A DNA stretch of 47,296 bases, from the NCBI GenBank assembly GCA_903820285.1, contig CAIJGS010000238.1, positions 1-47,296 of the forward strand, read 5' to 3'. This document shows, piece by piece, positions 8,882-44,197 of the stretch. The DNA comes from an uncultured Verrucomicrobia subdivision 3 bacterium. GTDB lineage: Bacteria; Verrucomicrobiota; Verrucomicrobiia; Limisphaerales; UBA11358. Position 1 is the stretch's first letter. Each line of letters begins with the position of its first letter. Under the pieces are notes generated by a model. It saw nothing but the letters and a program-made list of their open reading frames with translations, made no database searches and had not been told where the DNA came from. The translations under genes were made by a program, and so were the position numbers.

Positions 8882-8899
8882 GTCATTCATCAGGGCAAA

Positions 8900-10223: not shown

Positions 10224-10254
10224 TCAATTAGTCCAACAACCAAACCAAAGCATC

Positions 10255-11568: not shown

Positions 11569-11605
11569 ACAACTCCCAGTCATACTTACCTCATTGCAAC
11601 CCATT

Positions 11606-13120: not shown

Positions 13121-13167
13121 GCCGCAGCAACCAATAAACAATATAACGCCTCGAAGAAAATTGCCCC

Positions 13168-15549: not shown

Positions 15550-15585
15550 GAAGAGCGCCACCGGGCAACCATAAGATCTTTTTTC

Positions 15586-17259: not shown

Positions 17260-17279
17260 ACGAATGCTGACTCGCAATA

Positions 17280-17840: not shown

Positions 17841-17857
17841 CGACTCAATTCTAATAT

Positions 17858-18556: not shown

Positions 18557-18580
18557 GCAGCGCAAAAAATTATATACCCC

Positions 18581-19567: not shown

Positions 19568-19583
19568 ACCAACCAACACAGTT

Positions 19584-20744: not shown

Positions 20745-20767
20745 CCCGTTGTTCCCATTAAAATGTT

Positions 20768-22603: not shown

Positions 22604-22619
22604 ACTGACCGTTCTCACA

Positions 22620-22655
22620 AAGTGGCGATGCCCCCCGGCATCGCCACTTGTTTAT
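22620..22655 (+). terminator. Rho-independent terminator closing the arabinose operon
   Basis: A 12-bp perfect stem AGTGGCGATGCC (22621-22632) pairs with 22637-22648 around a CCCC loop, followed by TGTTTATTT. It begins 18 bases past the symporter stop and separates that gene from the ABC ATPase gene. Confidence 0.88.
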
Positions 22656-22771
22656 TTCCCGCCATTATCTGGGGCACATCCATGATGGCCCATTGTCAGT
22701 TTACGCAAGGAAAACGCCTTGCGGGAGCCGACCGGCAACGCCACCATTTGTCCCATTATCATTACCCCAGC

Positions 22772-24954: not shown

Positions 24955-25662
24955 CTATTGGGGTGTTTTCGAGGCCATATAACGGACGACCGCCTCGGTG
25001 CGGGAACTGACATGTAATTTGGTGAAGACATGCTTCAAATGGCTGCACACCGTATCCACGCTCAAATCCAGTTTGTCGGCAATCATCTTGTTGGAATAGC
25101 CCTGGGAAAGGAGCACCAAAATCTGTTCTTCGCGCATCGACAGGCGGGAGGATTCATCCCGGATTTTGGCCTTCTGCCGGAATGACTCGATGACCCGCCG
25201 GGCAATCTGGCTGGTCATGGGCGCGCCGCCGCCCAGGACATCGAGCAGGGCGGTTCGTAAATCCGACGGTTTGGTGCGCTTGAGCAAATAGCCATCGGCA
25301 CCCGCTTCCAGCGCCAGGAATACCAGTTCCTGATCGTCCATGGCGGTGAGGATGACGATCTGAGTTTGCGGGAGCAAAGCCTTTAGCCGCACGGTGCATT
25401 CAATCCCGGACATGCGGGGCAGGAAAATATCCATAAGCACCACGTCCGGCATCTCGAGGGGGATGGTGCGGACGGCCTCTTCACCCGTCGTGCAGGCGCA
25501 TATGCAGGTGAAATCGGGAAACGAGTTGATGAGTTTGATCCAGCTTTCACGAACCTTTGGCTGGTCCTCAACCAGCGCCACTTTGATCTGACGCCGGGGG
25601 GCGGAATCCGCCGAACGACCGCTTTTGGCCGGTTTCAAATTTTTAGCATTTGTTGGAATCAT
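24955..25662 (-). CDS. NarL/LuxR-family response regulator
   Basis: A cytoplasmic DNA-binding response regulator paired with the kinase gene directly upstream. The receiver domain has the acidic pocket VALVEDQPKVRES and the phospho-acceptor Asp in PDVVLMDIFLP (residue 78 from this start), then QIVILTAMDD and GYLLKRTKPSDL, with the switch Thr/Ala and the conserved Lys. The C-terminal LuxR-type helix-turn-helix is intact (LSMREEQILVLLSQGYSNKM, IADKLDLSVDTVCSHLKHVF). The start is taken as ATG at 25662, overlapping the kinase stop by 20 bases, which gives 235 residues. An ATG at 25710 would add 16 residues. Expected targets are the glycosidase genes of this locus (inference). Confidence 0.92.
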   Translation of the reverse strand: MIPTNAKNLKPAKSGRSADSAPRRQIKVALVEDQPKVRESWIKLINSFPDFTCICACTTGEEAVRTIPLEMPDVVLMDIFLPRMSGIECTVRLKALLPQTQIVILTAMDDQELVFLALEAGADGYLLKRTKPSDLRTALLDVLGGGAPMTSQIARRVIESFRQKAKIRDESSRLSMREEQILVLLSQGYSNKMIADKLDLSVDTVCSHLKHVFTKLHVSSRTEAVVRYMASKTPQ

Positions 25663-27172
25663 GTGGATGTGCAAGTTCGTCTGTCCGGCTGTTTTTGGTT
25701 TCGCGGTCATTTTTACCGGACAAAAGCCAATTCCAGATACTTCCCCGCTGGTGGCGCAAGGGAACGTTAAATTCAACGCGGCACCCCTGCCCCGGCTGGC
25801 TGGTGATGCGGCAATGGCCACCGAGTTCTTTCATTCGCTGGACCATGTTGGCCAGGCCGTTGCGCTCCGATTTCGGCACGGCGGGGTCAAAGCCTTTGCC
25901 ATTGTCTTCGACCACCACGGCCAGGTGCTGGCCTTCCCAATGGATTTTCAGGCGCAGTTCGGTGGCACCGGAATGTTTGGCGGCGTTGTTGAGGGTTTCC
26001 TTGATGGCCATGAGGAGACTGCGCCGGAGCGGCAGGTCAAAGGCGGCGGACGACATTTCCGGCCCCACTTCAAACAGGCAGAGGATTTTGGTCGGGGCCA
26101 GATACCCCTCGGCATACTTGCAAACGTAGGCAGCGAAATCACGCAACGTATCCCGCTGGGGATTTACCGCCCAGAGGACTTCATCCATGGTGGACAGCAG
26201 GCCGCGGGCTTCCTCACAAAACCAGCTGAGTTGCTGGCGGATTTCCGGATTAACGCACTCTTCATTTTGGGCCAGCTCACCGTGCAGCACCAGCTGGGTC
26301 ATGCGGGCACCAATGTCATCGTGAATATCCCGGGCAATCCGGGCGCGCTCACGTTGCAGGAGAAAACGTTCTTTGCGATGCAGTGCCAGCTGGGTCATGA
26401 GCCGAAGGCTTACCAGAATGACAATGCCACAGACAGTGAGCAGCGAGACCTGGAACCAACCGGTTTGCCAGAAGTACACCTTGATCGGTTTCAGCGACGG
26501 CATCATGTTCACCGCTTCGGGAGCCGTCCACCAGGGACTGCCGCCCAAGGGCGCGATGTTGGTCGCGGCCGGCCAATCCGCTGGCGCTTCGGCGCGGGTT
26601 TTCCACCGGCTCACACCGTCCGGCACAACCCGCCAGCTGGGGTCCGACTTGATTTCCACGCTTTGACCATTCGTCAGGTCAATGCGCAACCCCAAAAGCA
26701 CGCCCGCAAAAAAAGAGCCGTTGAAACACTGGATACCCAGAACATGCCGTCCCGGCGGCAGCAGCGGGGCCAGATCAAAGACAAACAACTCGCGCCACTC
26801 GGCTCCCCGCCCCAGTTCGCGGCCATCCAAAAAAAGCGTGAATTCATTGTCCGTCGTCATGACCAGACGCGCTTTGGCGACCTTGGCATCCAGGGGAATA
26901 TCAAAGGCGTGCCAGAACTGGCAAGTTTGGTTATCCTCGGTTTTATCCGCCCAAATCCAGGAACCCAGGCCGTTGGTGGGGCTCACGTAGGGCTCCGCCA
27001 ATTCCATCAGGGCTTTCTGGTCATTAGTCACACTGACGTCGGCGAGCGCCGGCAGGGGCATGTTCAGCAGCAAGACAAACAACAGCACTGCGCCGGCACC
27101 CAACAGGGCACGGTGCCAACGCCAGCTCAACCAAGTAAAATGAATATTGGTTTGGTGCAGATGCGATAGCAT
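25643..27172 (-). CDS. NarL-type histidine kinase with a glycosidase-like sensor domain
   Basis: A membrane sensor kinase of 509 residues. TM1 lies at about 21-44, TM2 at about 238-258. The periplasmic loop (about 45-235) is a beta-sandwich: SWIW start, TTDNEFTLFLDGRELGRG, LPPGRHVLGIQCFN, AGVLLGLRIDL and SDPSWRV. This follows the same pattern, in the same order, as the accessory domain inserted in the GH78 protein at 40912-44160 (QWIW, TADDQYQLYFNGQEAGHG, LKPGRNVLEVVARN, AGLLCKLKVRL, TDDQWKC). The cytoplasmic part is a HisKA_3 dimerisation domain (phospho-His in ARDIHDDIGARMTQL, about residue 284) plus an HATPase (KETLNNAAKHSGA, VVVEDNGKGFDP, NGLANMVQRMKELGG). A direct carbohydrate or glycoside signal is inferred. 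It is co-transcribed with the response regulator. Confidence 0.93.
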   Translation of the reverse strand: MLSHLHQTNIHFTWLSWRWHRALLGAGAVLLFVLLLNMPLPALADVSVTNDQKALMELAEPYVSPTNGLGSWIWADKTEDNQTCQFWHAFDIPLDAKVAKARLVMTTDNEFTLFLDGRELGRGAEWRELFVFDLAPLLPPGRHVLGIQCFNGSFFAGVLLGLRIDLTNGQSVEIKSDPSWRVVPDGVSRWKTRAEAPADWPAATNIAPLGGSPWWTAPEAVNMMPSLKPIKVYFWQTGWFQVSLLTVCGIVILVSLRLMTQLALHRKERFLLQRERARIARDIHDDIGARMTQLVLHGELAQNEECVNPEIRQQLSWFCEEARGLLSTMDEVLWAVNPQRDTLRDFAAYVCKYAEGYLAPTKILCLFEVGPEMSSAAFDLPLRRSLLMAIKETLNNAAKHSGATELRLKIHWEGQHLAVVVEDNGKGFDPAVPKSERNGLANMVQRMKELGGHCRITSQPGQGCRVEFNVPLRHQRGSIWNWLLSGKNDRETKNSRTDELAHPHDSNKC

Positions 27173-27296: not shown

Positions 27297-30200
27297 TCAA
27301 GGTATGGTCGTGACTTCCTGGCTTTGAAGGATCACGGGTCCGATCAAGCCGGATTTCGGCAGGGCGGAATCACGGTTGAACGGCTCATACGAACTCCAGG
27401 TGAAGCGCTCCGCCGCCGGCAACGCGGCGTCACCGATCATGCGGTTAGGCCACAGATTGGCGACGCGGATTTCCAGCGCGTTGCCACCCGACTGCAAGGC
27501 GCCGGTGATATTAACGCGAAACGGTGCCTTCCACAAAATACCGAGATCATGGCCATTTAGTTTTACCTGCGCCATCACCTGCACGTCACCGAGGTCCAGC
27601 CAGGTTTCGGTCTTCTGTTTCCCGGCAGGGGCCACCGGCTGCCAATCAAAGGTCTTGGTGTATGTAGCCGTGCCCGAGAATAATTTCACCCCGGGGTTGG
27701 TGGAGTCGCTTAACGAACCCAGGTGATCCAAAGCAATTTTGTCCGGCGCGCCCCACTTGGGCGGAAACTGCACCGCCCATGAACCGGTGATTTCCTGGGG
27801 CGCAGACACGTTTTTGATTTCGACGCGCCGTACCCGGCCGCTTGCCCTGGTCATTGAATAGAGCCCAGACTGCGACGCGACCAGTTCCAACTGTCCCGCC
27901 GGGTCACAACGGATTTCAGCCGGACGACCAGCCACGGGAGCCAGCCAGCTCAAGTGAATCTGATCGTTGCCGCCACCTTGAAAGTATTCCACGCGGAAGT
28001 GGCAGGGCTTTCCCGCCACAAGGTTTATCTTTCCAACATGCGCCTCGCTGCCGGTGTCCAGGCTCCAATGATCAATTACCAGCCGGTCATTCACCCACAA
28101 GCGGCATCCATCATCGGCATAGAGACAGAATGCATATTCACCTGATTTCATCGCCGTCAGGTTGCCCGTCCAGCGTGCCGACCAATTATTGGCCGGAATT
28201 CCCGGGGCCGGGGAACCGCTGTTCCAGGCAAAATCAACCCCGGCATCCGTGCGAACCAGAGCGGGCGCGCCGCTCAAATCGGGATTGGCAAAATATTCGC
28301 CGGTCAATCCGCAAACCCCGTCGGCCCCGGTAGTGAACGCGATTTCTGGATTCAGGCTGATCTGGTCCGGGTCCTGGCCGCTGACGGTGTAGGGCTGCCC
28401 ATCGGCGGTATATTTCAGAACCAGTGTTTTCACCGTGCCGAAGGCCGGATCATCGCCGGCCGCCAGTTGCGCCACTTGAAACCTGAGTTCACCCTGCTCC
28501 ACCAATGCCCGCACCTTGGCCAGCACATTGCGGGTACGCGCCGCATCGCCGGGGACACCGTAGGTGGCTTGTTCAACCCTGATCACCGGCGGCTGGCTCA
28601 GCGGCACCACCGGGCGGTCATCCCGTGTGAAATTCACGACGGCATCAAACGGCCGGGCGGAGGGGCCAAACACCACAAACGTTGAGCCGCTCGGCTCGAG
28701 ACGCAAGGGGATGGAAATGCCCGCAGCGGTTTCTTCGTACGTTGCCAGCGGAGACACTTCACCAGTCTGCGGATTCCATAATTCAGGCCGCAAACCCGTT
28801 ACCCGAAAACTGCTTCTGGTTTCCACGGCGGCAGCGGAATCGTTGGCTACGAAATAAACTTCCCGGTCGCCCACCGACCGGTGAATCCAGTTCAGTTTCA
28901 CATTGGAGACAAAGTCCGCCGGTGCCCGCAACTGTTTCAATACGGTTTTGAGTGACCGCCCCCAGATCACCCGGCCCTGGCCAAGAGAATGTTCGGTAAC
29001 CGTCCGGCCGTCGCAATTGCCCCAGACTTCCGCCGCCAGCTGCGCAACTTCCTCGTCGCATTTGGGGAAACCGGTGAGACTCGGCGAGCTGGCAGGACGC
29101 GGCCCCACCACGGTGGCTCCGGCCTGGACAAGCTGTTTTATTTTTTGAACCAAGGCGGGCGTCATCTGCGTATTATGTTCAGGCAGGACCAGCAGCCGGT
29201 AGCTCATGCCATCCGGCAGCACCAGCCGTCCATCCTTCACGCTCATGCGTGCGATCAACGCTTCCGCACTGCACTCATCGTATTTGTAACCGGCGGGGAT
29301 TTCCGGCGTGGGCGTCAGATAAGTTTGGTCGGGCAATTCGGGGCGCAAACAGCAGACATCAGCGACGAACAGACCTTGCCGCAGCAGGTATTGGCAACGT
29401 GCCAAGTATTGATGCCAGGCAATCGACATTTCCCACCAGGTCTGGGTGCGTTCATAGTGCAGGCCCCAGGGGCCCATGGTTGATCCGGGAAAGCGGTCGA
29501 GATAGGGTTGATGGGCGTACCGATGGATTACAAAGCGGTTGATGCCCTGAGAAAATTCATAATCCCCCAGCGCCTTGATGGTGGCCGGATGGAATTTCCA
29601 TTGTTCATTGTCACCGGAGGTAAACGCTTCCGCGCCGACAATTTTTTCGCCCATGATATGCGCCACAGACGCCATCTGCCGGCCTTTGACCTGATTTTGG
29701 CTGCCGCCTGTCGCCCAAAATTCACTCATGGGTTCATCCGCACGCTGGGTGTAGGTGGCCTCGTCGCCAAAAGGCAGATCGTAGCCTTCGAGTGTCAGGC
29801 GCAAGCCGTGCTCATGCGCGCGTTCAGCCAGCCGCCCGACATAATTTTCGGCAAGCAGTTCGGCGAGCGTCTGATTGAAGTCCCACCGAAACCGGCTGGC
29901 GATGCTTGGGTCACCAATGGCAAATTTGGCACCCTGACCGAGCCCTGGAACATCCGGCAGATACGGAATGGGATCGTAGCCGCGGCGTTTGATGAATTCA
30001 TCGCGAAATTTGGGCGTCCAGTTTTGAGAACCGACTTCCCAACTGTCAATGTGCGTCGCTGTGAGTGCGGTGCCAGCCAGGGGGCCGACTTCGGCGATGA
30101 GTTTGCCCATCATGTTCGTAAAATGAACATCCATGGCCTCCCGGCTCAATTTATCACATTCCAAGCCGTTGCCACCCTTGACCGGCGGACGGGTAGATGA

Positions 30201-30881
30201 ACCGGTGGAGGTGTGGCCGATGCGCTGGATGATCCATTTACCGGCCGGGACCTCCCAATTTAAGGTTCCGGTGCCATCCAATTTGGCCGTCAGGTCAATT
30301 ACGCCGTCAGGCGCCACCGTGCCTTCGGACGTTTCCGGAATCGCCAGCACGGCGATGTCATGATAAAAATCCTTATACTTGACCGTGCTATTAAAGCCGT
30401 CACGCCCTTGTTTGGGCTTGGTGGGCGAGGGCAGAATTTGTGAAAAATGGAGCGGACCGGCCACCGGCAGGTTGGTGGAGATGAGCATTTGCATGGAAAG
30501 CTCCGGGGTGATCCAAGGACCGCTGCTGCCGCACCAGCCGGGGCCGTTGGTCATGTTAATTTCGATTCCCAACCGATGGGCCTCGGCGACCGCAAAGCAA
30601 AACAAATCCTGCCATTCGGCATTCATGAAATCGGCCGAGCCGGGCGGCGGGGCGAAGCGTTCCACCACGTCCATGATGATGACGCCGCCGATGCCGGCGC
30701 GCTGCATCGCCTCCAGATCGGCGGTGATGCCCGCCTTGGTGACATTGCCGTTGTTCCAGAACCAGTAAACCCACGGCCGCGCCGAGGCCGGCGGCCGGAC
30801 GAATTGCGCCGCCAGATCATCGGCCAGCAATGGCCCGGCACACAGCGTCAGTAACAGAACAACGAGCAGTTTCACCTTCAT
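27297..30881 (-). CDS. GH106 alpha-L-rhamnosidase-type hydrolase with PA14 domain
   Basis: Secreted (signal peptide MKVKLLVVLLLTLCAGPLLA) 1194-residue enzyme. The N-terminal two thirds match GH106: RPWVYWFWNNGNVTKAGITA, LEAMQRAGIGGVIIMDV, GIEINMTNGPGWCGSSGPWI, THIDSWEVGSQNWTPKFRDE, RLTLEGYDLPFGDEATY, GAEAFTSGDNEQW and NRFVIHRYAHQPY. GH106 enzymes remove terminal alpha-L-rhamnose with inversion. A small beta domain similar to DUF3395-type modules (about 766-846) follows, then a PA14 lectin-like domain (about 856-982: GLTGEYFANPDLSG, ADDGCRLWVNDRLVIDHW), then a GH2-like sugar-binding domain (about 1028-1190: WLDLGDVQVMAQVKLNGHDL). It lies between the GH99-like and kinase genes and is preceded by a hairpin-rich repeat, so it may have its own promoter. 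Confidence 0.9.
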   Translation of the reverse strand: MKVKLLVVLLLTLCAGPLLADDLAAQFVRPPASARPWVYWFWNNGNVTKAGITADLEAMQRAGIGGVIIMDVVERFAPPPGSADFMNAEWQDLFCFAVAEAHRLGIEINMTNGPGWCGSSGPWITPELSMQMLISTNLPVAGPLHFSQILPSPTKPKQGRDGFNSTVKYKDFYHDIAVLAIPETSEGTVAPDGVIDLTAKLDGTGTLNWEVPAGKWIIQRIGHTSTGSSTRPPVKGGNGLECDKLSREAMDVHFTNMMGKLIAEVGPLAGTALTATHIDSWEVGSQNWTPKFRDEFIKRRGYDPIPYLPDVPGLGQGAKFAIGDPSIASRFRWDFNQTLAELLAENYVGRLAERAHEHGLRLTLEGYDLPFGDEATYTQRADEPMSEFWATGGSQNQVKGRQMASVAHIMGEKIVGAEAFTSGDNEQWKFHPATIKALGDYEFSQGINRFVIHRYAHQPYLDRFPGSTMGPWGLHYERTQTWWEMSIAWHQYLARCQYLLRQGLFVADVCCLRPELPDQTYLTPTPEIPAGYKYDECSAEALIARMSVKDGRLVLPDGMSYRLLVLPEHNTQMTPALVQKIKQLVQAGATVVGPRPASSPSLTGFPKCDEEVAQLAAEVWGNCDGRTVTEHSLGQGRVIWGRSLKTVLKQLRAPADFVSNVKLNWIHRSVGDREVYFVANDSAAAVETRSSFRVTGLRPELWNPQTGEVSPLATYEETAAGISIPLRLEPSGSTFVVFGPSARPFDAVVNFTRDDRPVVPLSQPPVIRVEQATYGVPGDAARTRNVLAKVRALVEQGELRFQVAQLAAGDDPAFGTVKTLVLKYTADGQPYTVSGQDPDQISLNPEIAFTTGADGVCGLTGEYFANPDLSGAPALVRTDAGVDFAWNSGSPAPGIPANNWSARWTGNLTAMKSGEYAFCLYADDGCRLWVNDRLVIDHWSLDTGSEAHVGKINLVAGKPCHFRVEYFQGGGNDQIHLSWLAPVAGRPAEIRCDPAGQLELVASQSGLYSMTRASGRVRRVEIKNVSAPQEITGSWAVQFPPKWGAPDKIALDHLGSLSDSTNPGVKLFSGTATYTKTFDWQPVAPAGKQKTETWLDLGDVQVMAQVKLNGHDLGILWKAPFRVNITGALQSGGNALEIRVANLWPNRMIGDAALPAAERFTWSSYEPFNRDSALPKSGLIGPVILQSQEVTTIP

Positions 30882-31130: not shown

Positions 31131-32873
31131 CTAGCGAGCGCCAAAGACAGACTTGACCGCTTCGAGATAGCCGTAGCCAGTCTGCTGCGTGGGTTCCAGG
31201 CAACTGCCTTCCGGCCACTCGTTCCATGCGTTGATGGTAAGGATTTTAGGCTGTACCGGCGCAGCCAGCAACCGTTGTTTGATAATTTCCAAGGACTGCC
31301 GGAACGCCGCCGGCGTGTTGCCCGTGACCACCGAGTTCACGGTTGGCCCGGCAGGATGACTCCAATCGGCGTTGGCGGCGGCGCGCGGACTGTTATCCCA
31401 ATTGATCATGGCGTTCGGGAAATAAGGGATGGTGTAGTCCACTTTCGCGTGGGACCAGAATGAAAGATATTTCCGGCGACCGGCGAGATAATCCGACAGC
31501 GGGAAGGTATTGTTATTCAAGGCGCCATGATGCACCCATGTATAGCTGGTGAGACTGTCGAGCGCCAGATCGCGGCAGAGCTTGGGCCAGCCGGGTGGAG
31601 TTTTGCCGCCGGGCAGATTCGGCTCGCCCCAGACAATCGCATTGACGTGCAAACCGGGAAAGCCGGCGGCAACGACCTTGGCCCGGAATTGGTCAATGGC
31701 GGTGCGGGCGTTTTCAATTGAGCCAAAGCTGTCGAGGAACTGGCTCATCTCATAGATGGAAAAATACGGTTTCCCGTCCACCAGCCAGTAGCTGGGGTGC
31801 TTGAAATAACGGGCGATGACCAGGTCGCAAATCTTGTCCCAGGTTGCGGGTGTGACCTTGCCGGGATACAGGAGTTTGAGATTGTTGTCGGCGGGGTTGT
31901 AGCCCTGGATGTCATACCAGTCATGATTTGCCCACATGAGGGCAAACTTCACCCGGGCATTGTTGGTGGCGTGAAGAAAGCCTTGGTCCAACGCATCGTC
32001 AAGATATGGTCCATCGTTGTAATAATACCAGTCGAAGATGAAGGCGTTCACGCCGTAGTCGGCGGCAGCGGCGATCTTTTGTGCCATGACTTCGGGCTTT
32101 GCTTCGTTTTGATAACCCCAGAGCGGCGGTTTGGGCTGCACATGGCCGGGAAAGCGTGGCTTGGCGGCTTTGATTTCATCCCATTCCGTGAACCCGGGAT
32201 ATTTGTTCTTGTCCCAGCGCGGATCCGGATGAGTGCCTGGGTAATAATAGGCGGCCACGGTGATGGGCGTGGTGGACGCAGCGGCTAGCTGGGTGGCAGC
32301 GGAACCCGACTCCCGGACCGTCACGGAAACATTGTCGAGTGCGGGGGTAGATTGGGTGGCTTGGAATTGGATGATGATGGCCGTGCCGGCGGGCACTTGT
32401 GACGCCACGAGGATATGCTGGTCGCCATCCGTAAAATCGCCGGTCGCGAGGGGACGCTGCCCGCCGTCCAAAATGGACGCCTTTAAAACGGTCTCGCCAT
32501 TGAAGACATCCGAAACATCAAACGTTAGCACGACATCGGCGGTTTTTTCCAGCGTGCCAACTGGCTGGGACAGCTGCCCCAATTGGGACGGGTTGCAGAT
32601 TGGCGGCGTCGCACCTTCCCGGACATTGAGCGTATAGAGATTGCTAGTGCCGATCCAGCCCGATGGCAGGCCGGCATACCAGCCATCGTTGCCCTGGGTC
32701 AGGCCGGCTAGGTCGCTGAAGTCGCCGTTGACAACGGCCAGGCCACCCTGCCCGGCTGATGCCAGGGCCGGCAAGACAGTCATGCACAGTGTCAGCCATT
32801 TCAGCGTTTTCAAAATGGCAATTGATAGGTGGCCGGATCGCAAAAATGCGCCGAAAGGTAGGACTGTTTGCAT
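31131..32873 (-). CDS. GH99-like/WbsX-type secreted hydrolase with N-terminal CBM-like domain
   Basis: A 580-residue exported protein (signal peptide from MQTVLPFGAFLRSGHLSIAI to about residue 41). Residues about 45-185 form a beta-sandwich of carbohydrate-binding type (NGDFSDLAGL, SNLYTLNVREG, LDNVSVTVRES). The rest is a TIM barrel of the GH99-like/WbsX family: VAAYYYPGTHPDPRWDKNKY, GVNAFIFDWYYYNDGPYLDD, FALMWANHDWYD, RYFKHPSYWLVDGKPYFSIY, and the closing ILTINAWNEWPEGSCLEPTQ with its conserved Glu. Related enzymes are endo-alpha-mannosidases or act on bacterial surface glycans and complex plant glycans; the substrate here is unknown. I chose the ATG at 32873, 23 bases past the GH78 stop, rather than a TTG that overlaps it. 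Confidence 0.88.
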   Translation of the reverse strand: MQTVLPFGAFLRSGHLSIAILKTLKWLTLCMTVLPALASAGQGGLAVVNGDFSDLAGLTQGNDGWYAGLPSGWIGTSNLYTLNVREGATPPICNPSQLGQLSQPVGTLEKTADVVLTFDVSDVFNGETVLKASILDGGQRPLATGDFTDGDQHILVASQVPAGTAIIIQFQATQSTPALDNVSVTVRESGSAATQLAAASTTPITVAAYYYPGTHPDPRWDKNKYPGFTEWDEIKAAKPRFPGHVQPKPPLWGYQNEAKPEVMAQKIAAAADYGVNAFIFDWYYYNDGPYLDDALDQGFLHATNNARVKFALMWANHDWYDIQGYNPADNNLKLLYPGKVTPATWDKICDLVIARYFKHPSYWLVDGKPYFSIYEMSQFLDSFGSIENARTAIDQFRAKVVAAGFPGLHVNAIVWGEPNLPGGKTPPGWPKLCRDLALDSLTSYTWVHHGALNNNTFPLSDYLAGRRKYLSFWSHAKVDYTIPYFPNAMINWDNSPRAAANADWSHPAGPTVNSVVTGNTPAAFRQSLEIIKQRLLAAPVQPKILTINAWNEWPEGSCLEPTQQTGYGYLEAVKSVFGAR

Positions 32874-32896
32874 GGGTAATTCACTATTGTTTTCCC

Positions 32897-35800
32897 TCAA
32901 GGCACGCGCAATTGAAAGAAACCGACGGGTTGTGACGCGTTAATGGGAATGCCATTTGAGAAAGCGCCGGCACCATCCAATGTACCGGTACTGTTCGTCT
33001 TCCAGTGGATTGGGGCCGAGAGATTGGTTGCGGCCAGCCACGTGTAGCCACTGTTCGGCGTACCGTTGGTACCGGACAGGATCAGGTTGGTCCCGGTAAC
33101 CTTCAGCACCCCTAACTCCGGCACTTTAAGGCTGACCGGCGTGGCCACCAAACGCACATTGTCAAAATCCGCCTGAATGGTGGTGCCGTTGCCGGGCACG
33201 GACAGAACAATGGTCAAATCTCCACTAACCACCGCACCGGAGGTAAATGAGACTGTATAGTCCTGCCAACTATTCTGCGCGGTGGGCAGCCCGCCACCGC
33301 TGGCCAATACCGCGCCGCCATCGTTGCCGCCATTGACGAGCAAAATGGTTCCGGGTGAATTCAGCCGGTCACTGCGGGAACCAATTGCCACGGTCAGCGT
33401 GTAGGTGGTGTTGGGTTGAAGCGCCCCCACATCCTGATAGATGCCGCCCGTCACGCCCGCGTTGAACATGTTGATGAAGCAGTACTGGTTGCCATCCGCC
33501 GGACTCGCGAGGGGCGTACTGACGGTATAATCCACGCCGCCCGCCCACTGCGAACCGATATCTCCCGAGCCGCCCTGATTGAATTCCGACCAACCGGTGG
33601 GAACCGTGGTGGTCTCCGTCCCGGGCCCGCTGGCGACGTTGGCCTCAAAACTGAAGTTGAACACGCTGACCGGGAGCGTGGCGGAAACCAGAAAAGGCGA
33701 GGTGAACGAATACGTTCCGGAACCCACCGTATAGATGGCGGCATTATTGGAAACCCCGACATAGGTGACCCCGGGCGCGCCTGCCGCCGGCAATCCGCTT
33801 TCGGTGATGGCGGCGGCATTGGTGGTGGGCACATGAATTTCGGCGGTGGCATTGGCGGGAATCGTTACGTTGAGAGTGAGCAGGTTGTTAGTCAACTGCC
33901 AGGCGGAACCAATGCGGCCAGCAATGGAATCGTAATAGCCCTGTGCCGAAGTCAGAGCGCCGCCGGGTTGGGGATTGATGAGTATTTTGGCAAAGCCGGG
34001 CGATAACAAGTCGATGCCCAGAATGCCTTGGTAAAACCACTCCGCGCAGGTTCCCAAATTCGCATGGTTCAGGGAATCCATGGGATAATTGTAGCAGGCC
34101 GTATTGATAGTTCCGTCCGCATTTACACTGTTCCACTGCTCCCACATGCTGGTGGCACCAAGCTTGATCCAATAGCCCCACGACGGGTAATCGGTTTTGG
34201 CCAGCATTTGGTAGGCGAGATCGCTGCGTCCACTGGCGGTCAGGGTAGACAGCAACCAATGGGTTGTGACCATGCCGGTGGAGATGTGCCCGTTCTGAGC
34301 CTGAACAGCGTTCACCAGTTTCGCCGCCGCCAGTTGGCGCTGGGCCGGTGTCAAAAGATTGAAATGGAGCGCCAGGACGTAGCCGCTTTCGGAACCCGAC
34401 CCCACCGTGCCATCGCTGCTGACAAAATTTGCCTGGAAGGCGGAACAAATGTTGGTGAACAGGAGTCCATAGGCGGCCGCATCGGCCGGCTTGCCGAGCA
34501 CCAGAGCCAGCTCGGCCATTTCACTGGCGCAACCGGCATAGAAGGCCGTGGACATCAGATTGCCTGGGGTGGAAGTATCAGTTGCAAGCCAGTCGCTATA
34601 GCTGCCGCTTTGCCCGATATAAGTGATGGCGGTCGCAGCGTAGTGTTGCATGTGGCTTTGCATGTCCGCATAAAAGCGGCTGGCCAGCCGGGTATCGCCA
34701 TACGTTTGATAAACCCAATACGGCAGCAACACACCACAATCGGACCAGCCGGAGGCAAATCCGAAATTTTTATGAGGGCTCGGGGCCATTTGCGGAAAGG
34801 TCGTGGCATCCAGCTTGCCGTCCACCATGTCCTGATACCATTTGCCGTAGAAACTTTCGCTCTGCGCCATGAACATGGCCGAGCGCATCACCTCCGTGCC
34901 GTCGCACCAGCCCATGCGTTCATCGCGCTGCGGGCAGTCGGTGGGAATATCGAACGAGTTGGCGCGCACCGACCAGAGCATGTTTGAGTAAATGTGGTTG
35001 ATCAGGTCATTGGAACATTGAAAAGCGCCGGTCTCAGCCAGTCCCGAATGCACCACCACGCCGGTGAACGTTTTGGTGGTCGGTGCCTGCGCCAGACCCT
35101 GAACTTGCACGTATTGAAATCCGTGATAGGTGAAGTGCGGCTCCCACGTCTCCACGCCGCCCTTGCAAATGTAGGTATCCGTGGCCGCCGCCGAGCGGAG
35201 GTTGGCCCGGTTCACGGTTCCATCCGGGTTTAACCACTCGGCAAAGCGCATCACCACCGCGCCGCCCGCCGGCTGATTGCTGAGGGTCAGGCGCGCCCAC
35301 CCGGCGAAGTTCTGCCCGAAGTTCACCACATAAACTCCGGGTTGCGGCTGGGTGATGGCGATGGGGGTAATGGTCTGATTCGTGCAGACCGGTTCGGCGG
35401 GAGCAGCCGTGATCAACGGCGTGACACTCGCCCCGGTTGTCACCGCGGTCCAAGTGGCATTGGTGTATCCCGGGCGATCCCAACCCGGCACCTCCAATTG
35501 GGCATTGTAATATTCGCCAGACTGGATGTCGCTCTGACGGATCGGTCCAAAGCCGGCCGACCAGGAACTGTCGCTGACGATCACCTGGTTTGTACCATTG
35601 GCATAAAACAGGTGCAGCTCGGCGTCCAACCGGGTTTTGCTCCCGTAATAATTCTGGCCCAGAATGCTGATGTTGCCACGGAACCAGCCATCGCCGAGGA
35701 TCGCTCCCAATGTGTTTGTGCCCGACTGCAACAGCGACGTGACATCGTATGCCCGGTAATAGACGCGCTTGCTATAATCGGTCCAGCCCGGCACAAAATA

Positions 35801-37066
35801 ATCATTCCCCACTTTTGCCCCGTTCAGGTGCGGCTCCACCAATCCCAGACTGGTGACATATAAAACGGCGCGCACCGGCATTTGCGACAGTGTGAAATCT
35901 TTCCGCAGGTGGGTTGCGGCGAGGTAACTCTTTCCATCATTGGTATTAGCGTACGCGGGCGCATTGTCCCGGCCAATCCATTGGCCGGTCCAGCGGCTTT
36001 GCAACACGTAGTTGGTGGCCGGCGAAGTATTGGTGAGCAATAGGATGGCGTTGTATTGGGAATTGAAAGCGGAGCCATTGCCATTTTCCACTGTATAAGA
36101 CTGCGTTGTGGCGGTAGCGGTGAAGGTGCCGATGAAATAGCCGCCGACCGCCGGCGAGCCATTGGCGAAGGCATACGTTTGATTGGGACTGAAACTCACG
36201 CCATCTGTGATGCGAAAAACGGATCCGCCGGCGGCGGCACCACGGGTGTCTGCCAGCAGCGCCATCACCGTGTAGGACTGGCCCACCGTCAGGTTTTTCA
36301 ACGTCGCCGTATTGGCCGTACTCCCGTATAGACCATGCGTCAAAATGCTGTTGAGTGCGGTATCACCGGTGGTGGCGCCGCCGGTCAGGTAACTTCCATA
36401 CAGCGCATAACCGCTACCGGCAATGGCCACTTTGCCGGAGGTGGCGTAGTCGGCAAAGGTGTAACCGTTCACGGTTCGTGCCCCCGAGCCGCCGAAATCC
36501 ACGCCGTAAACTTCATTGCTGGTGGCACCGGCCAGGCTGAGCACTGAATTATTGGTGAAGATGCCTTGTGCCCCCCAAGTGATCTGGGCCGTCACAACCG
36601 GTGCATTGGTGAGTAACAAGCCCATGCTCCAGGAGGCAGGCGGACTCCAGTCCGAAGGTTGGCCGTATTTGTCCCAGACCTGCACGTGCCAATAACATAC
36701 TTGATCCGTCGCCAAGGGTGATCCGGCATAGGAAATTTGAGAAGCTTGATTCGTGATCACCTGACCGGTGTCCCACAAGTCGCCCAGATTATTGGTCAGG
36801 TTTTGCAACGAGCTGGCGACCTCGATCCGGTAGCCGGTCAGGTATTGTCCCCGTTCACCAGGTACAGTCGCCACGATCTGCCAGCTTAACCTTGGGCTGG
36901 TCTCGGTCAGGCCAAGGGGATTCAGTTTTGATTCACACTGCAAATCCACCGGCATGACGGCGGCAATCGCGGAACCGGTCAACAGCAAGATGAGCCAGCA
37001 GCCACTTGCGATCAGACTGCCTCGCTGGCAAACTGTCCCCATCGCATATGCAACGATTTTAACCAT
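32897..37066 (-). CDS. GH78 alpha-L-rhamnosidase A, multidomain (1389 aa)
   Basis: Secreted enzyme cleaving terminal alpha-L-rhamnosides. The signal peptide ends near residue 36. Order of parts: FnIII-like domain (MPVDLQCESKLNPLGL to WSMGLL, 37-150); an inserted beta-rich domain of about 195 residues (about 155-350: ITWGAQGIF, RTVNGYTFADYATSG, YNAILLLT); the rhamnosidase N-domain (VTSLGLVEPHLNGAKVGNDY); VYVVNFGQNFAGWARL; then the (alpha/alpha)6 barrel with the catalytic motif TDCPQRDERMGWCDG (709-723) and TSMWEQWNSV (972-981). A C-terminal beta domain is followed by a jelly roll (about 1135-1310) and a terminal module (about 1320-1389, LSGTNGTPNSGYTWLAATN). The ATG at 37066 has an AAAGGA site four bases upstream, one of few in this window. 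Confidence 0.94.
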   Translation of the reverse strand: MVKIVAYAMGTVCQRGSLIASGCWLILLLTGSAIAAVMPVDLQCESKLNPLGLTETSPRLSWQIVATVPGERGQYLTGYRIEVASSLQNLTNNLGDLWDTGQVITNQASQISYAGSPLATDQVCYWHVQVWDKYGQPSDWSPPASWSMGLLLTNAPVVTAQITWGAQGIFTNNSVLSLAGATSNEVYGVDFGGSGARTVNGYTFADYATSGKVAIAGSGYALYGSYLTGGATTGDTALNSILTHGLYGSTANTATLKNLTVGQSYTVMALLADTRGAAAGGSVFRITDGVSFSPNQTYAFANGSPAVGGYFIGTFTATATTQSYTVENGNGSAFNSQYNAILLLTNTSPATNYVLQSRWTGQWIGRDNAPAYANTNDGKSYLAATHLRKDFTLSQMPVRAVLYVTSLGLVEPHLNGAKVGNDYFVPGWTDYSKRVYYRAYDVTSLLQSGTNTLGAILGDGWFRGNISILGQNYYGSKTRLDAELHLFYANGTNQVIVSDSSWSAGFGPIRQSDIQSGEYYNAQLEVPGWDRPGYTNATWTAVTTGASVTPLITAAPAEPVCTNQTITPIAITQPQPGVYVVNFGQNFAGWARLTLSNQPAGGAVVMRFAEWLNPDGTVNRANLRSAAATDTYICKGGVETWEPHFTYHGFQYVQVQGLAQAPTTKTFTGVVVHSGLAETGAFQCSNDLINHIYSNMLWSVRANSFDIPTDCPQRDERMGWCDGTEVMRSAMFMAQSESFYGKWYQDMVDGKLDATTFPQMAPSPHKNFGFASGWSDCGVLLPYWVYQTYGDTRLASRFYADMQSHMQHYAATAITYIGQSGSYSDWLATDTSTPGNLMSTAFYAGCASEMAELALVLGKPADAAAYGLLFTNICSAFQANFVSSDGTVGSGSESGYVLALHFNLLTPAQRQLAAAKLVNAVQAQNGHISTGMVTTHWLLSTLTASGRSDLAYQMLAKTDYPSWGYWIKLGATSMWEQWNSVNADGTINTACYNYPMDSLNHANLGTCAEWFYQGILGIDLLSPGFAKILINPQPGGALTSAQGYYDSIAGRIGSAWQLTNNLLTLNVTIPANATAEIHVPTTNAAAITESGLPAAGAPGVTYVGVSNNAAIYTVGSGTYSFTSPFLVSATLPVSVFNFSFEANVASGPGTETTTVPTGWSEFNQGGSGDIGSQWAGGVDYTVSTPLASPADGNQYCFINMFNAGVTGGIYQDVGALQPNTTYTLTVAIGSRSDRLNSPGTILLVNGGNDGGAVLASGGGLPTAQNSWQDYTVSFTSGAVVSGDLTIVLSVPGNGTTIQADFDNVRLVATPVSLKVPELGVLKVTGTNLILSGTNGTPNSGYTWLAATNLSAPIHWKTNSTGTLDGAGAFSNGIPINASQPVGFFQLRVP

Positions 37067-37183: not shown

Positions 37184-37199
37184 GTATGATGCGTATGAT
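37184..37199 (-). promoter_or_regulatory. Candidate regulator site: direct heptamer repeat
   Basis: GTATGAT occurs at 37184-37190 and 37193-37199, separated by two bases, about 120 bases before the GH78 A start. The 7-2-7 spacing recalls NarL-family sites, although those are usually inverted. The rest of the 267-base gap (37067-37333) shows only a short ATCACC/GGTGAT hairpin at 37247-37264 and no gene. Confidence 0.25.
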
Positions 37200-37333
37200 A
37201 AGCGACGCACCTGAATCGGCAAATGCCCCAAAACGGTTAAACCCGCATCACCGAAACAGGTGATACCCAAAAACAAATACAAGTCCGGGTGTTGGCCGGA
37301 ATCTCCTGTTTCCATGTGAACAGAAGCTCTGGT

Positions 37334-40300
37334 TTAACGCAGGTGCCGGGATTCAGAAACGAATTGGTATTGGCCGGAGCCGACTTGCAAAACGACGCAA
37401 CCATCTTCCTGCCGCAGAAATTGGATTCCTTCCGCCTGACTCAGCGGCTGGCCGTTTTCGGTGACTGATCCCACAGTTTTCGCCGGCACATAAACCGTGG
37501 CCGTGGTATTCGCAGGGATGGCAACCTTCAACGTAAATTTGCTGCCCTCAGAATTCCAATCGCTGGCGATCGTGCCGCGGATGGAATCATAGCTAGCCTG
37601 GCACCAAGTGACTTCCCGAACCGGCCGCGGGTGAATCGTGAAGGACTGGTAGCCGGGATGCTGCTCGTCGGGATTCAGCCCGGCAATGTTGCGCCAAAGC
37701 CATTCGCTGACCGCGCTGTGCGTCCAATGATTGAGGGACAGATTTTGCGTGTTGGCGTTAAAGGCCTCCCAGAAGGTGGTGTTGCATTCGGCCATGTAAC
37801 CCCAGGAAGGTTCATCGCGCTGGTTCATCATTTTGGCAACGTCCGCCTGATAACCGGCGTCGGCCAAGGCGAGCAACATTTCAACACTGCTCCAAAACCC
37901 GGTCGTCGGATGATGTTTGTTCCGGACCACCAATTCATCGAGCCGCTTGGCGGCCAAAGAACGCAGCGGCTCATCGAGGAGGCCAAAACGCAGCGCGAGC
38001 GCATAGCTGCCCTGGGTATCGCCCAAGTCGGTGGCGTCATAGCCATAGGCAGCCGAAATAATTTCAACGGGCTGATCATTTTGACCGCTCACTTCCACCT
38101 TGCCGCCTTCGATGATGGACTGTTCTTCGGTTGTGTTTCCCCGGCGGATAACGAGGTGAAGATTTTTGATTTGATTGAGCGCCGGATCACCACCGAGCAC
38201 ATCATTGTGCACCGTGAAATTCCATTTTCCGTTACTGGCCAGGGCGCGAACATTGGCGGTCACGTCACGCATGACGGTTTGGCCGGGAACCCGGCCGCCA
38301 ATGATCCCCGTAGCACTAACATGGTCTTTCACAAACCCCTGCCGGATGCCTTGGAATAAGGCCTGATATTTCGCTGCCTCAGCCGTTCGCCCCAAGGCTT
38401 GAGCCATGCGGGATAACAGGTCGGCGGAGTGCGCAAAGAAGGCGGTCGCACCAATCTCTCTGGGCGTCTCTGCGCCGGCGCTCAACCAGTCGCCCCAGTC
38501 CTGGCCACGATTGTTCCGCCAGCGCAAGTCGGGATTGCTGGCATGAATGGCCTCCACCCAGCGCTGTGCGGCTGCGAAATGGTCGGCCAGCAGCCGGCGG
38601 TCGCCGGTGTTCACATAGACTTCCCACGGGAGCGAGACGCCCGCATCCCCCCATCCCGGCGACCCCACGCAGGTGGTGGTGCCGCGCAAATGGGCATGCG
38701 GCGCAATGTCGGTAAAACGGCCATCGGGCGCCTGATCATCCCGGATATCGGCGGCATATTTGGTCAGCAGCGGGGCGGTGTCGAAATTGAGCAGCAATGA
38801 CTGCACACAGGGCCGGATGTCGCCCATCCAAGCGACTCGTTCGGAGCGCGCGGCGCAACCGTTCGGCACATCGAACAACAGGTTGGCCTGGGTCCAGGCC
38901 GCCGCCGACCGGATGCGGTTATACAATTCGTTTGAGCATTCGAAATGCCCCGCTATCGCGGCATCAGTGCGCACGTTGACCGCCACCAGGGTGTCGGGTT
39001 TCAACTGGCCAGGCAGCCCAGACAGTTCGACGTAACGGAAACCATGATAGGTGAAGTGCGGTTCCAGTGTGCGCGAACTTTTGCCATCCAAAATGTAATC
39101 CTCCTCCTGCAGCGTGCCCATGAGCGTTCCGATGTCGATATTGCCATCGGGTGAAGTCATCTCTGCATGGCGCAGCCGCACATGCGTGCCGGCCGGGCCA
39201 TCGGCCTGCAACCGGCACCAGCCGGTGAATTCCTGACCGAAATCGAACACATAGACACCCGGCTTGACCTCCTTCACCGCAACGGGCTTAAACTCGCGGA
39301 TCACCCGCACAGGTTGGGTACGATCCCACACCAGCGGCACTTCGTTGCGCGGTTGGGACCAAGCCGGTTGCCAGGCACGGTCATCAAAACCGGGCTGATC
39401 CCAGCCGGACATTTCCCGGCGGCAATCATAACCTTCGCCATCGAGCAAATCTGACCATCGCACCGGGCCATCCAGGGTGCTGCGCCATTGGCCATCTGTC
39501 CCTAGGCGAGCATGGGTGCCGTCCGTCAGTTCCACATCGAGCTGGGCAAGAAATTGCGGGAAATAGCCATAGATGGAGCGCATTTCAAACAGGTTCATAT
39601 GGCCGGCATACCAGCCATACCCAAGCAACGCACCGATGGCATTCGTCCCCTGTCGGAGCAGGCTGGTGACATCCACAGTCTGATATTGGAGGCGCATACC
39701 ATAGTCGGTGTAACCGGGAGCCAGCAGTTCATCCCCCACCCGCTGGCCATTGATCCGCACTTCGTAAAAACCCCGGGCCGAAACGGAAAGCGTGGCGCGG
39801 CGGATTTGGCCGTTAAGATTAAATTCACGGCGCAACAGGGGCACACGCGACACGGTAAATCGTTTCGTTGTATCCGCCATGCCTGCGTCCAACGCCGCAG
39901 AATCCACCAAATCGACCGCCGAGCGGCCATTTACGAGATACTTTTGGGACCATTGTCCGGACTCGATGGAGTCGAAGCAATCCACTCCCGCTCCCACGGC
40001 GATGGACCGTGAGCCATCAAAAACGGAAATGCCGCTCAGCGCGACCCCATAATCCTGGCCATCCCAGCAGGACAGGCGGGTAACCGTCAAACGGACATAA
40101 CGCGCCGTGACCGCCGGAAACTGGAAATGGCACGAGTCATGGCGCGGATTGGGATAATCGTTGGCCGTGTTATCCACCACCAGGTGCGCATCACCAAAAT
40201 CCCGCTGATCCGCTGCTTCAACTTTGAAGCGCAGCGGAAACATCGCAGTGCGAAAATCACTATTCTGGCCCGGCGGACGGGCAGGTAGGAGATCCACCGC

Positions 40301-40861
40301 ATCCATCCGTTTGCTTACCCCAAGGTCGAGAATTATCCGTTTGACGGCATCGGGCTGCGATGCCAGTTCGCTGCGGTAACAGTGGACCGGCGCCAGCGGC
40401 CGGTTGGCCGGGTCCGCGAGGACCGGATCGCTGATCCACTGGGCGCTCCAATCGGAAGGCGAGAGCAATCCCATGCTCCATTTGGCAGGCTGACTCCAAG
40501 CGGACGGTTGGCCGGCGCGATCCCAGGCCTTGATTTTCCAAAAGCATGTTTCGTGGGAAACCAGCGGCTGGCCCGCATAAGTAATTTGGGCGCTGGCATC
40601 GGTCAGGACCTTGCCGCTATCCCAAAGATCGCCAACATTAGCATTGAGATTGTCGGATGATGAAGCCACCAGAATTTGATAAGCCGACTGTTTCTCGCCG
40701 CGTTGATCCGAAGTTAAAACCCAACTCAACTGCGGCTGAACGACGTCCATACCGATAGGATTATCCCGTTGCTCGCAACGCAACTGGCTCACGCCCAATG
40801 CAGCGGCCGCTTTCGCGGTCAGCAGGCACACCAAGAGCCCGCACAGTGTCAAAGTCTTCAT
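37334..40861 (-). CDS. GH78 family protein B with two inserted domains, altered motif
   Basis: A 1175-residue secreted GH78 protein (signal peptide MKTLTLCGLLVCLLTAKAAA). It has the FnIII-like domain (to about 132), then an F5/8-type-C-like domain (about 155-335: RIILDLGVSKRMDAVDLLPA, FQFPAVTARYVRLTVTRLS). The N-domain follows (RGFYEVRINGQRVGDELLAP), then YVFDFGQEFTGWCRL and the helical barrel. Inside the barrel a module of about 90 residues (849-940: RDVTANVRALASNGKWNFTV, HNDVLGGDPALNQIKNLHLV) interrupts the loop before the GSYALALRFGLL helix. The usual DCPQRDERxGWxGD motif reads NGCAARSERVAWMGD (667-681): the Glu is kept, but the preceding Asp of DER is Ser. The second motif is TTFWEAFNA (1028-1036). 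It may be a rhamnosidase with altered specificity. The next GH78 gene lies 50 bases upstream. Confidence 0.92.
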   Translation of the reverse strand: MKTLTLCGLLVCLLTAKAAAALGVSQLRCEQRDNPIGMDVVQPQLSWVLTSDQRGEKQSAYQILVASSSDNLNANVGDLWDSGKVLTDASAQITYAGQPLVSHETCFWKIKAWDRAGQPSAWSQPAKWSMGLLSPSDWSAQWISDPVLADPANRPLAPVHCYRSELASQPDAVKRIILDLGVSKRMDAVDLLPARPPGQNSDFRTAMFPLRFKVEAADQRDFGDAHLVVDNTANDYPNPRHDSCHFQFPAVTARYVRLTVTRLSCWDGQDYGVALSGISVFDGSRSIAVGAGVDCFDSIESGQWSQKYLVNGRSAVDLVDSAALDAGMADTTKRFTVSRVPLLRREFNLNGQIRRATLSVSARGFYEVRINGQRVGDELLAPGYTDYGMRLQYQTVDVTSLLRQGTNAIGALLGYGWYAGHMNLFEMRSIYGYFPQFLAQLDVELTDGTHARLGTDGQWRSTLDGPVRWSDLLDGEGYDCRREMSGWDQPGFDDRAWQPAWSQPRNEVPLVWDRTQPVRVIREFKPVAVKEVKPGVYVFDFGQEFTGWCRLQADGPAGTHVRLRHAEMTSPDGNIDIGTLMGTLQEEDYILDGKSSRTLEPHFTYHGFRYVELSGLPGQLKPDTLVAVNVRTDAAIAGHFECSNELYNRIRSAAAWTQANLLFDVPNGCAARSERVAWMGDIRPCVQSLLLNFDTAPLLTKYAADIRDDQAPDGRFTDIAPHAHLRGTTTCVGSPGWGDAGVSLPWEVYVNTGDRRLLADHFAAAQRWVEAIHASNPDLRWRNNRGQDWGDWLSAGAETPREIGATAFFAHSADLLSRMAQALGRTAEAAKYQALFQGIRQGFVKDHVSATGIIGGRVPGQTVMRDVTANVRALASNGKWNFTVHNDVLGGDPALNQIKNLHLVIRRGNTTEEQSIIEGGKVEVSGQNDQPVEIISAAYGYDATDLGDTQGSYALALRFGLLDEPLRSLAAKRLDELVVRNKHHPTTGFWSSVEMLLALADAGYQADVAKMMNQRDEPSWGYMAECNTTFWEAFNANTQNLSLNHWTHSAVSEWLWRNIAGLNPDEQHPGYQSFTIHPRPVREVTWCQASYDSIRGTIASDWNSEGSKFTLKVAIPANTTATVYVPAKTVGSVTENGQPLSQAEGIQFLRQEDGCVVLQVGSGQYQFVSESRHLR

Positions 40862-44160: not shown

Positions 44161-44197
44161 GGGTTGTGATTGAATGGGTAACATTGAGATCAGGACC

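Follow-up and report, generated by a model that had tools for sequence, protein, structure and literature searches.

A two-component sensor among rhamnosidase genes

The stretch of DNA analysed here, called the window throughout, comprises 47,296 nucleotides of contig CAIJGS010000238.1 (assembly GCA_903820285.1) from an uncultured Verrucomicrobia subdivision 3 bacterium. It encodes a sensor histidine kinase, P0001, whose predicted periplasmic loop resembles a domain inserted in an alpha-L-rhamnosidase of the same locus. That enzyme, GH78 C, is one of three members of glycoside hydrolase (GH) family 78 in the window. The features used in the comparison are listed below; CBM67 is a carbohydrate-binding module, SaRha78A the Streptomyces rhamnosidase that contains it, and POL a Pleurotus lectin.

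25643..27172, minus strand: sensor histidine kinase P0001, 509 residues, with HisKA_3 at 275-339 (E 3.9e-8) and HATPase_c at 385-473 (E 2.7e-13)
26522..26977, minus strand: predicted periplasmic CBM67-like sensory domain of P0001, residues about 66-217 (profile, fold model, NCBIfam)
26846..26851, minus strand: codons of P0001 D108-N109, the pair that aligns with SaRha78A D179-N180 (profile alignment)
24955..25821, minus strand: NarL-type response regulator P0002, immediately after the kinase gene (Response_reg E 6e-23, GerE E 3e-17)
40912..44184, minus strand: GH78 C, carrier of the domain compared with the kinase loop (Bac_rhamnosid6H E 8e-102)
43195..43653, minus strand: CBM67-like domain inserted in GH78 C, residues about 178-330 (phmmer against PDB: POL 4.7e-33, SaRha78A 3.5e-29)

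In P0001, hydrophobic stretches at about residues 20-49 and 236-265 are separated by some 200 residues, the loop, and H284 is present. P0002 probably starts inside its annotated frame, past the overlap with the kinase gene; its best NCBIfam match is NarL, with a score under that model's cut-off.

The loop is homologous to a rhamnosidase accessory module

The original prediction for this locus held that the loop and the GH78 C domain share an ordered set of motifs. Every motif listed is present in both proteins, in the order WIW (residues 72-74), TTDNEFTLFLDGRELGRG, LPPGRHVLGI, AGVLLGLRIDL and SDPSW in P0001, and WIW, TADDQYQLYFNGQEAGHG, LKPGRNVLEV, AGLLCKLKVRL and TDDQW in GH78 C. Aligned by BLASTP, loop residues 46-237 and GH78 C yield 66.2 bits (E 7e-17, 43 of 163 positions identical, 8 gaps). 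A search of the entire 5.2-Mb genome with the loop yields nine matches at an E-value of 0.001 or better: five kinases, then GH78 C (E 7e-15), which is the best non-kinase match, then proteins on contigs C267 and C49 that Pfam identifies as GH78, the C49 protein being counted twice. The genome-wide matches are kinases and GH78 proteins only, and the resemblance is far above chance. Among the three GH78 proteins of the window, GH78 C alone gives a match.

The Pfam scan of P0001 places nothing on the loop at E 0.01 or better; the NCBIfam model for Streptomyces alpha-L-rhamnosidase matches residues 65-217 (E 4.9e-14, model positions 132-294). A phmmer search of PDB sequences with the loop returns POL (3e-13) and Bacillus rhamnosidase B (1.7e-4). 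A profile built from five loops finds POL at 1.3e-25 and SaRha78A (3w5m) at 4.4e-18 for the whole chain and 6e-12 for its best stretch, residues 139-295, which is the CBM67 stretch of that enzyme, while beta-galactosidases appear only from E 0.01 upward. Membership of the loop in another known sensor family was rejected: Pfam searches over 28 loops gave only weak matches, to Glyco_hydro_2_N and Bac_rhamnosid_N.

An AlphaFold2 model of the window's loop, made with 27 relatives in the alignment, has a mean pLDDT of 84.3, with 131 of 203 residues at 90 or above. Searched against PDB with Foldseek, it finds SaRha78A at ranks 1 and 2 (3w5n and 3w5m), the first being the complex with rhamnose (E 7.6e-12, root-mean-square deviation 1.9 over 162 columns, TMq 0.66). 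Ranks 1-11 are GH78 enzymes or POL throughout, including POL with rhamnose (6kc2), and GH2 enzymes begin at rank 12 (E 6e-5). A fold different from that of the enzyme's module, which structure prediction of the loop might have revealed, was not seen: the predicted fold is the beta-jelly-roll of the rhamnosidase CBM67 module. The loop thus shows the marks of CBM67 membership in its sequence kinship to the SaRha78A module, in the fold of the predicted model and in the putative calcium and sugar residues described next.

A conserved putative ligand site

Profile alignment sets kinase residues D108-N109 on SaRha78A D179-N180, W126 on W203 and N151 on N228. In SaRha78A these residues reportedly bind calcium and rhamnose. 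The pair at the site is D-N in P0001 and D-D in GH78 C, and the proline next to the SaRha78A site is unseen in the kinases; the original suggestion that kinase and enzyme bind the same glycan is accordingly tentative. Over 74 kinase copies from 72 loci, position 108 is D in 72, position 109 is N in 70 and D in three, position 151 is N in 73 and position 126 is W in 67; these counts omit domain matches of fewer than 110 model positions or with E above 1e-8, and locus L201, its frame broken by a stop, contributes no copy. The equivalent of W126 is absent in a six-member clade that includes the kinase of contig C381. In 15 GH78 domains D is kept in all 15 and N in 12. The loop's putative calcium and sugar residues are among the best conserved of the domain (28 of 28 in the 28-loop alignment), and as aligned here the putative ligand residues are conserved in the kinase family. 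In CBM67-type lectins, according to excerpts of a published description (PMC11512411), two neighbouring aspartates hold the calcium through which sugar is bound, and another position, Pro/Val, also plays a part and may tune the choice of sugar.

Loop kinases form a family almost confined to one order

The genome itself encodes five loop kinases, on contigs C238 (the window), C346, C267, C338 and C381. Those of C346 and C267 lie beside GH78 genes, and that of C338 adjoins genes for a class II aldolase and an aldehyde dehydrogenase. The C381 kinase has a longer head, with additional F5/8-type and BT_3657-like (GH43-related) matches. Together with L112, L115, L116, L117 and L127 it (L049:3592-6381) represents a clade of kinases of about 930 residues, in which an F5/8-type C domain and a GH43-related propeller (BT_3657-like_N; weak GH32 match) precede a CBM67-like domain that lacks the conserved Trp. 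Two kinases contain the domain in duplicate (G165 C9 and G162 C13); tandem CBM67-like domains are found in L194:8992-11148 and L190:3980-6208, kinases of 719 and 743 residues.

Searches at increasing taxonomic distance show loop kinases to be a family almost confined to one Verrucomicrobiota order. Across 49 genomes of the taxonomic family, 45 loop-kinase matches (E 5e-58 or better) separate from the rest (6.5e-27 or worse); in the 21 genomes that were searched for PF17389 as well, 28 of these remaining matches have E below 1e-15, and 26 of the 28 fall on GH78 frames, as judged by eye. The order was represented by 320 genomes, of which 43 pass E 1e-30, four solely by matches of about 1e-31 in unexamined frames of 769-1123 residues. 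An even draw of 387 genomes from the phylum added two genomes only, both of the same class, with strong kinase-like matches (E 1e-66 and 3e-65), while G433 in this draw has weaker matches in frames of 1114 and 1172 residues. A scan of named genomes gave 27 loci, whose titles are metagenome-assembled genomes of Verrucomicrobia, Limisphaerales or Pedosphaera type, one Methylacidimicrobium and two plain "bacterium" entries.

In a tree of the domain, a branch with support 100/100 (bootstrap not fully settled) parts all 74 kinase copies from the 15 GH78 domains compared. A second tree, which includes SaRha78A and POL and retains 20 of the 74 kinase copies, again makes the kinases one clade, with SaRha78A and POL among the GH78 domains. 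Recent borrowing from a neighbouring enzyme is ruled out by these separate clades; the module therefore entered the kinase lineage once, long ago. The prediction that the kinase borrowed an enzyme's domain holds as to homology (pairwise E 7e-17, with profile and fold matches to the rhamnosidase module) and fails as to its source, which is not the enzyme of this locus.

Outside the family, the best matches of the kinase core are long kinases, and both of those scanned are Reg_prop and Y_Y_Y kinases. The Pfam scan of P0001 gives no beta-propeller or Y_Y_Y match, though both sister kinases scanned have them. As judged from sequence, the simplest account of the origin of loop kinases would be a head swap on a Reg_prop/Y_Y_Y chassis.

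Loop kinases recur beside GH78 and GH106 genes

Of 73 loop kinases, 30 have a GH78 or GH106 frame no more than 6 kb away, as against none of 58 loopless sister kinases (Fisher p 8e-10, not corrected for relatedness); in 26 of the 30 the frame is on the kinase's strand. The 73 loci are those left after removal of L191 and L202, duplicates of L069 and L060; the controls are the best 18 of 27 loopless kinase matches of the same genome and the best 40 of 112 in seven other genomes. The neighbour models are home-made, GH78 from six sequences and GH106 from one. Background density of GH78 is about 1.4 matches per Mb (133 matches in 21 genomes, about 95 Mb). Proximity is most frequent in clade A of the kinase tree, which includes P0001 (17 of 24), and clade B (6 of 7), with 7 of 42 elsewhere. 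Because the neighbour label needs 15 changes on the kinase tree, the linkage is not one clade's accident. The absence of GH78-linked neighbours in other genomes, an outcome unfavourable to the original prediction, was not seen. A response regulator gene lies within 2 kb of 71 of the 73 loop kinases.

Five other loci (L048, L128, L133, L137 and L139) have microcompartment-type genes within 6 kb, a setting found in none of the 58 controls (p 0.05); these genes were named by eye, except for the aldolase and aldehyde dehydrogenase of L048, which were identified by Pfam. L048:9087-13974, in the same genome as the window, is a methyl-pentose microcompartment locus, where the neighbours of a loop kinase are a class II aldolase, an aldehyde dehydrogenase and a shell protein that resembles BMC-P (by eye). 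Fucose and rhamnose microcompartments of Verrucomicrobiota have BMC-H, BMC-P and aldolase, as set out in excerpts of PMC8857213. L-rhamnose would be the denominator common to the rhamnosidase and microcompartment settings.

A tandem palindrome stands before GH78 and secreted-protein genes

The kinase and regulator genes lie at the end of a co-directional run that is headed, in the window, by a candidate operator. The elements of this region, with the GH78 B gene upstream of it, are the following.

37248..37263, minus strand: candidate operator site 1, gene-sense TCACCTGTTTCGGTGA (palindrome and module matrix)
37224..37239, minus strand: candidate operator site 2, 24 bp away from site 1, reading TAACCGTTTTGGGGCA in gene sense (module alignment)
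37195..37200, minus strand: -10-like box TATCAT, 129-134 bp ahead of the start codon of GH78 A (read from the sequence; weakly conserved columns in the module)
32897..37066, minus strand: GH78 A, first gene behind the candidate operator (Bac_rhamnosid6H E 5e-93)
31131..32900, minus strand: secreted-type protein with WbsX-like domain (Glyco_tran_WbsX E 9e-49)
27297..30881, minus strand: GH106 alpha-L-rhamnosidase that also has a PA14 domain; its gene lies 124 bp upstream of that of the kinase (Glyco_hydro_106 E 2e-192, PA14 E 1e-28)
37334..40861, minus strand: GH78 B (Bac_rhamnosid6H E 8e-74)

An initial search for any 10-mer or 5-bp palindrome shared upstream of GH genes appeared negative, no word being present in more than 3-4 loci; the operator became convincing once an A-rich spacer, and then a tandem copy, were noticed. 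The site, found upstream of GH genes in clade A and B loci, is a 16-bp palindrome with an A-rich spacer. In gene sense the module reads TCACC-TGTTTC-GGTGAT, followed exactly 24 bp on by a looser copy, T-ACC-ATGTT-GGGGAT, and about 25 bp later by a weak -10-like TANANT. Activators of the NarL/LuxR kind are usually placed with a dimer site centred near -43 and a second 24 bp upstream.

A 78-bp matrix was built on 17 non-redundant sites (20 before removal of near-identical ones) from 14 loci of clade A. Above 8 bits it finds 39 places in 25 of the 73 loop-kinase loci, the window included, and none in the 58 control loci; leave-one-out scores are 30-66 bits. The module occurs in 18 of 24 clade-A loci, in all seven clade-B loci, which were outside the training set, and in none of the 42 others. 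All but two of the 39 sites (37) stand 19-360 nt before a same-strand start codon, that of a GH78 gene in 11 cases and mostly those of large secreted proteins in the rest; one weak site (L060, 7379) lies within a reading frame. A matrix for the single site is less specific at 13 bits (55 matches in 34 of 73 loop loci against 16 in 15 of 58 controls); at 20 bits it keeps 26 sites in 19 loop loci and no control, the best control site, at 19.8, being inside a frame.

In 30 chosen genomes the tandem pattern, allowing at most one mismatch, has 50 matches against 2 for the reversed pattern. It is present in 18 of 19 genomes with a loop kinase and in 3 of 11 without one. The three exceptions are G012, with part of a kinase at the end of a contig and one site ahead of a GH78-like gene (by eye), and G033 and G035, where the matches lie inside long frames. 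In G019 and G013 the site stands ahead of a GH78-like and a GH106-like gene (by eye) off the kinase's contig. The exact 16-mer has 33 matches in 21 loop-kinase genomes, six of which have none, 11 matches in 28 genomes without a loop kinase, and one match when reversed. At L270, which with L258 holds 16-mers of G031, the copy is flanked by a histidine-kinase-like frame and by the gene of a secreted protein.

Clade-B loci L047, L111, L120, L123, L124 and L125 have an operator of the form TCCCC...GGGGA (L120, L123 and L124) or otherwise drifted, possibly by co-drift of regulator and site. Large secreted Ig/LamG-type proteins recur behind the operator and beside loop kinases (L046:5795-8740, L109:11954-14899, L113, L119, L055, L076 and others) and are candidates for surface glycan binding.

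Other genes of the window

The WbsX ("glycosyltransferase") match at 31131-32900 is to a signal-peptide-like protein encoded between rhamnosidases; a secreted protein that acts on glycans is a likelier identity for it than a transferase. A Gfo/Idh/MocA oxidoreductase gene (Pfam) is also upstream of the kinase on the same strand. Upstream of GH78 C, likewise on the minus strand, an AraC-type regulator gene occupies 44306-45253; no counterpart was found in the other 50 loop-kinase loci compared. An arabinose/xylose-type set at 7330-24295, on the plus strand apart from its MFS permease (minus), comprises the permease, a ROK regulator, a xylose-isomerase-like protein, GH51, an FGGY kinase, GH43, an aldose epimerase, an SSF symporter and a sugar ABC ATPase.

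A proposed lectin-headed sensor of rhamnose-containing glycans

Homology of the loop to the enzyme module and linkage of loop kinases to rhamnosidases are near certain. The reading we favour is that P0001 is a membrane sensor of the NarX/HisKA_3 kind with a calcium-dependent CBM67-type lectin head, whose NarL-type partner induces rhamnosidases; for this whole chain we estimate a probability of about 0.62. The head would bind terminal L-rhamnose, or a like sugar, of glycan fragments freed outside the cytoplasm, and the signal would run through the second transmembrane helix into the kinase core. P0001 would then phosphorylate P0002, as their adjacency and domain types suggest, and P0002 would bind the tandem palindromes 37248-37263 and 37224-37239 just upstream of the -10 box, as the co-occurrence of kinase and site suggests. 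The activated run would be GH78 A, the WbsX-like gene, GH106, the kinase and the regulator, judging from the co-directional genes; transcript boundaries are presumed. With kinase and regulator inside the run, a positive feedback loop would result. We infer the existence and identity of the ligand, the direction of the signal, P0002 as the binder, and activation rather than repression. The odds that rhamnose is the ligand of this head are about even or somewhat better. The original proposal that the kinase switches on the rhamnosidase genes through its response regulator agrees with a specific tandem site ahead of GH78 genes in these loci.

Several observations weigh against this account. No GH78 or GH106 gene lies within 6 kb of 43 of the 73 loop kinases, although some stretches stop early at a contig end, and rhamnosidases are therefore not the family's sole output. 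The module is absent from the 42 loci beyond clades A and B and, at the 8-bit threshold, from 6 of 24 clade-A loci. In many places the gene behind the site encodes a large secreted protein of Ig/LamG type instead of a GH78 enzyme, which makes the regulon broader than rhamnosidases. Within the window, TCACCN6GGTGA with one mismatch has two matches, a number equalled by 34 of 100 shuffles; because the bare palindrome there is not above chance, the weight of the window's site comes from conservation. A promoter for GH78 B and C was not found in the window. The proline that neighbours the sugar in SaRha78A and POL was not seen, by eye, in 28 aligned loops. Genome G031 has four exact 16-mers, yet no loop kinase was found there. 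There is also a faint relationship to the sugar-binding domain of GH2: Glyco_hydro_2_N matches 28 of 28 loops weakly (best E 7e-6), the window's loop at 0.036, below cut-off.

The same device might answer to another ligand, such as L-fucose, galactose, arabinose, or a rhamnogalacturonan or arabinogalactan oligosaccharide, with rhamnosidases induced because they act on the same polymer. This is rather unlikely. The fold is not tied to rhamnose, since PDB contains POL, the best match by sequence, in entries with melibiose, GalNAc and rhamnose; the five kinases beside microcompartment genes sit with a type reported for fucose or rhamnose (excerpts of PMC8857213); and an arabinose-type set (GH51, GH43, FGGY kinase) lies on the window's opposite strand. 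Rhamnose is nevertheless favoured by the strongest cross-genome neighbours, rhamnosidases of two unrelated families (GH78 and GH106), and by the closest solved fold, the SaRha78A rhamnose complex.

We find it improbable that the tandem site is that of a different regulator of polysaccharide genes, with the kinase-regulator pair governing something else or itself only. The site accompanies the kinase in 25 of 31 loci of clades A and B, against 0 of 42 loop loci elsewhere and 0 of 58 controls, and by genome in 18 of 19 against 3 of 11; moreover no regulator gene except the response regulator was found next to almost every loop kinase (71 of 73). These figures must be set against sites that head genes on contigs lacking a kinase (for example G019 C15), against the 16-mer in G031, and against the status of P0002 as a presumed binder.

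Still more doubtful is a head that serves as a structural or protein-contact module, the kinase reading a partner (secreted Ig-type proteins or enzyme) or tension on bound wall glycan. Other HisKA_3 kinases here do use large beta-propeller heads (Reg_prop and Y_Y_Y, two controls scanned), and big secreted proteins recur behind the operator, but a purely structural role would not need putative calcium and sugar residues that are among the best conserved of the domain. Chance or a loose beta-sandwich resemblance without meaning is negligible, common though galactose-binding-like beta-sandwich folds are and despite the weak GH2_N matches, given a pairwise E of 7e-17 and profile and fold matches specific to GH78 and POL (ranks 1-11).

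For the lectin-headed sensor as a wider class, the odds are about even that loop kinases represent an undescribed signalling lineage of a single Verrucomicrobiota group, in which CBM67 was grafted once onto a propeller-type chassis, with single, tandem and F5/8 plus GH43-like heads, several paralogues per genome, loci of rhamnosidases and of fucose/rhamnose microcompartments, its own tandem operator, and the CBM as direct glycan sensor. In literature searches of open-licence papers, no description of a CBM67-headed kinase was recognised.

Comparison with known systems

Verrucomicrobiota are major degraders of polysaccharides; how they sense which glycan is present is little known, and many of their kinases have no assigned ligand. 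When the head of a kinase is a lectin module whose fold and sugar site are known, the ligand can be predicted from it, and where an operator lies ahead of the enzyme genes, regulons can be read from sequence.

The head of P0001 is like CBM67 (SaRha78A, PDB 3W5M/3W5N) and POL (6T1D, 6KC2) in profile, in predicted jelly-roll fold, and in the D-N pair, the Trp of "AEWR" and Asn 151. There the module belongs to an enzyme or stands alone as a lectin, whereas in P0001 it heads a membrane kinase, lacks the neighbouring proline and has a putative role in sugar binding.

With NarX, NarQ and UhpB and their regulators NarL and UhpA, P0001 and P0002 share a HisKA_3 and HATPase_c core and a separate receiver-GerE regulator next door. 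The characters of a HisKA_3/NarL-type system are all present: HisKA_3 with its phospho-acceptor His, HATPase_c, and a regulator with receiver and GerE domains. The head of P0001, however, is unrelated to the known heads by any Pfam match above cut-off.

The Reg_prop/Y_Y_Y kinases of the same genomes have the closest kinase cores and a like setting in polysaccharide degraders. In P0001 the propeller head is replaced by CBM67, and 58 of 58 such kinases tested have no GH78 or GH106 beside them. They are chassis relatives of Bacteroides hybrid two-component sensors, to follow excerpts of PMC10766802. In the hybrid sensors kinase and DNA-binding regulator are fused, whereas P0001 and P0002 are separate genes.

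The closest parallel in working is with the RsgI anti-sigma factors of Clostridium thermocellum, in which, by excerpts of PMC12203970, an extracellular carbohydrate-binding module of enzyme type senses the substrate and induces the degrading enzymes. RsgI acts by proteolysis and sigma release, with a sigma-binding N-terminal domain and a SigI partner, whereas P0001 has kinase domains (Pfam) and would act through a response regulator. The idea that binding modules of enzymes double as sensors, established for RsgI, would thereby be extended to histidine kinases.

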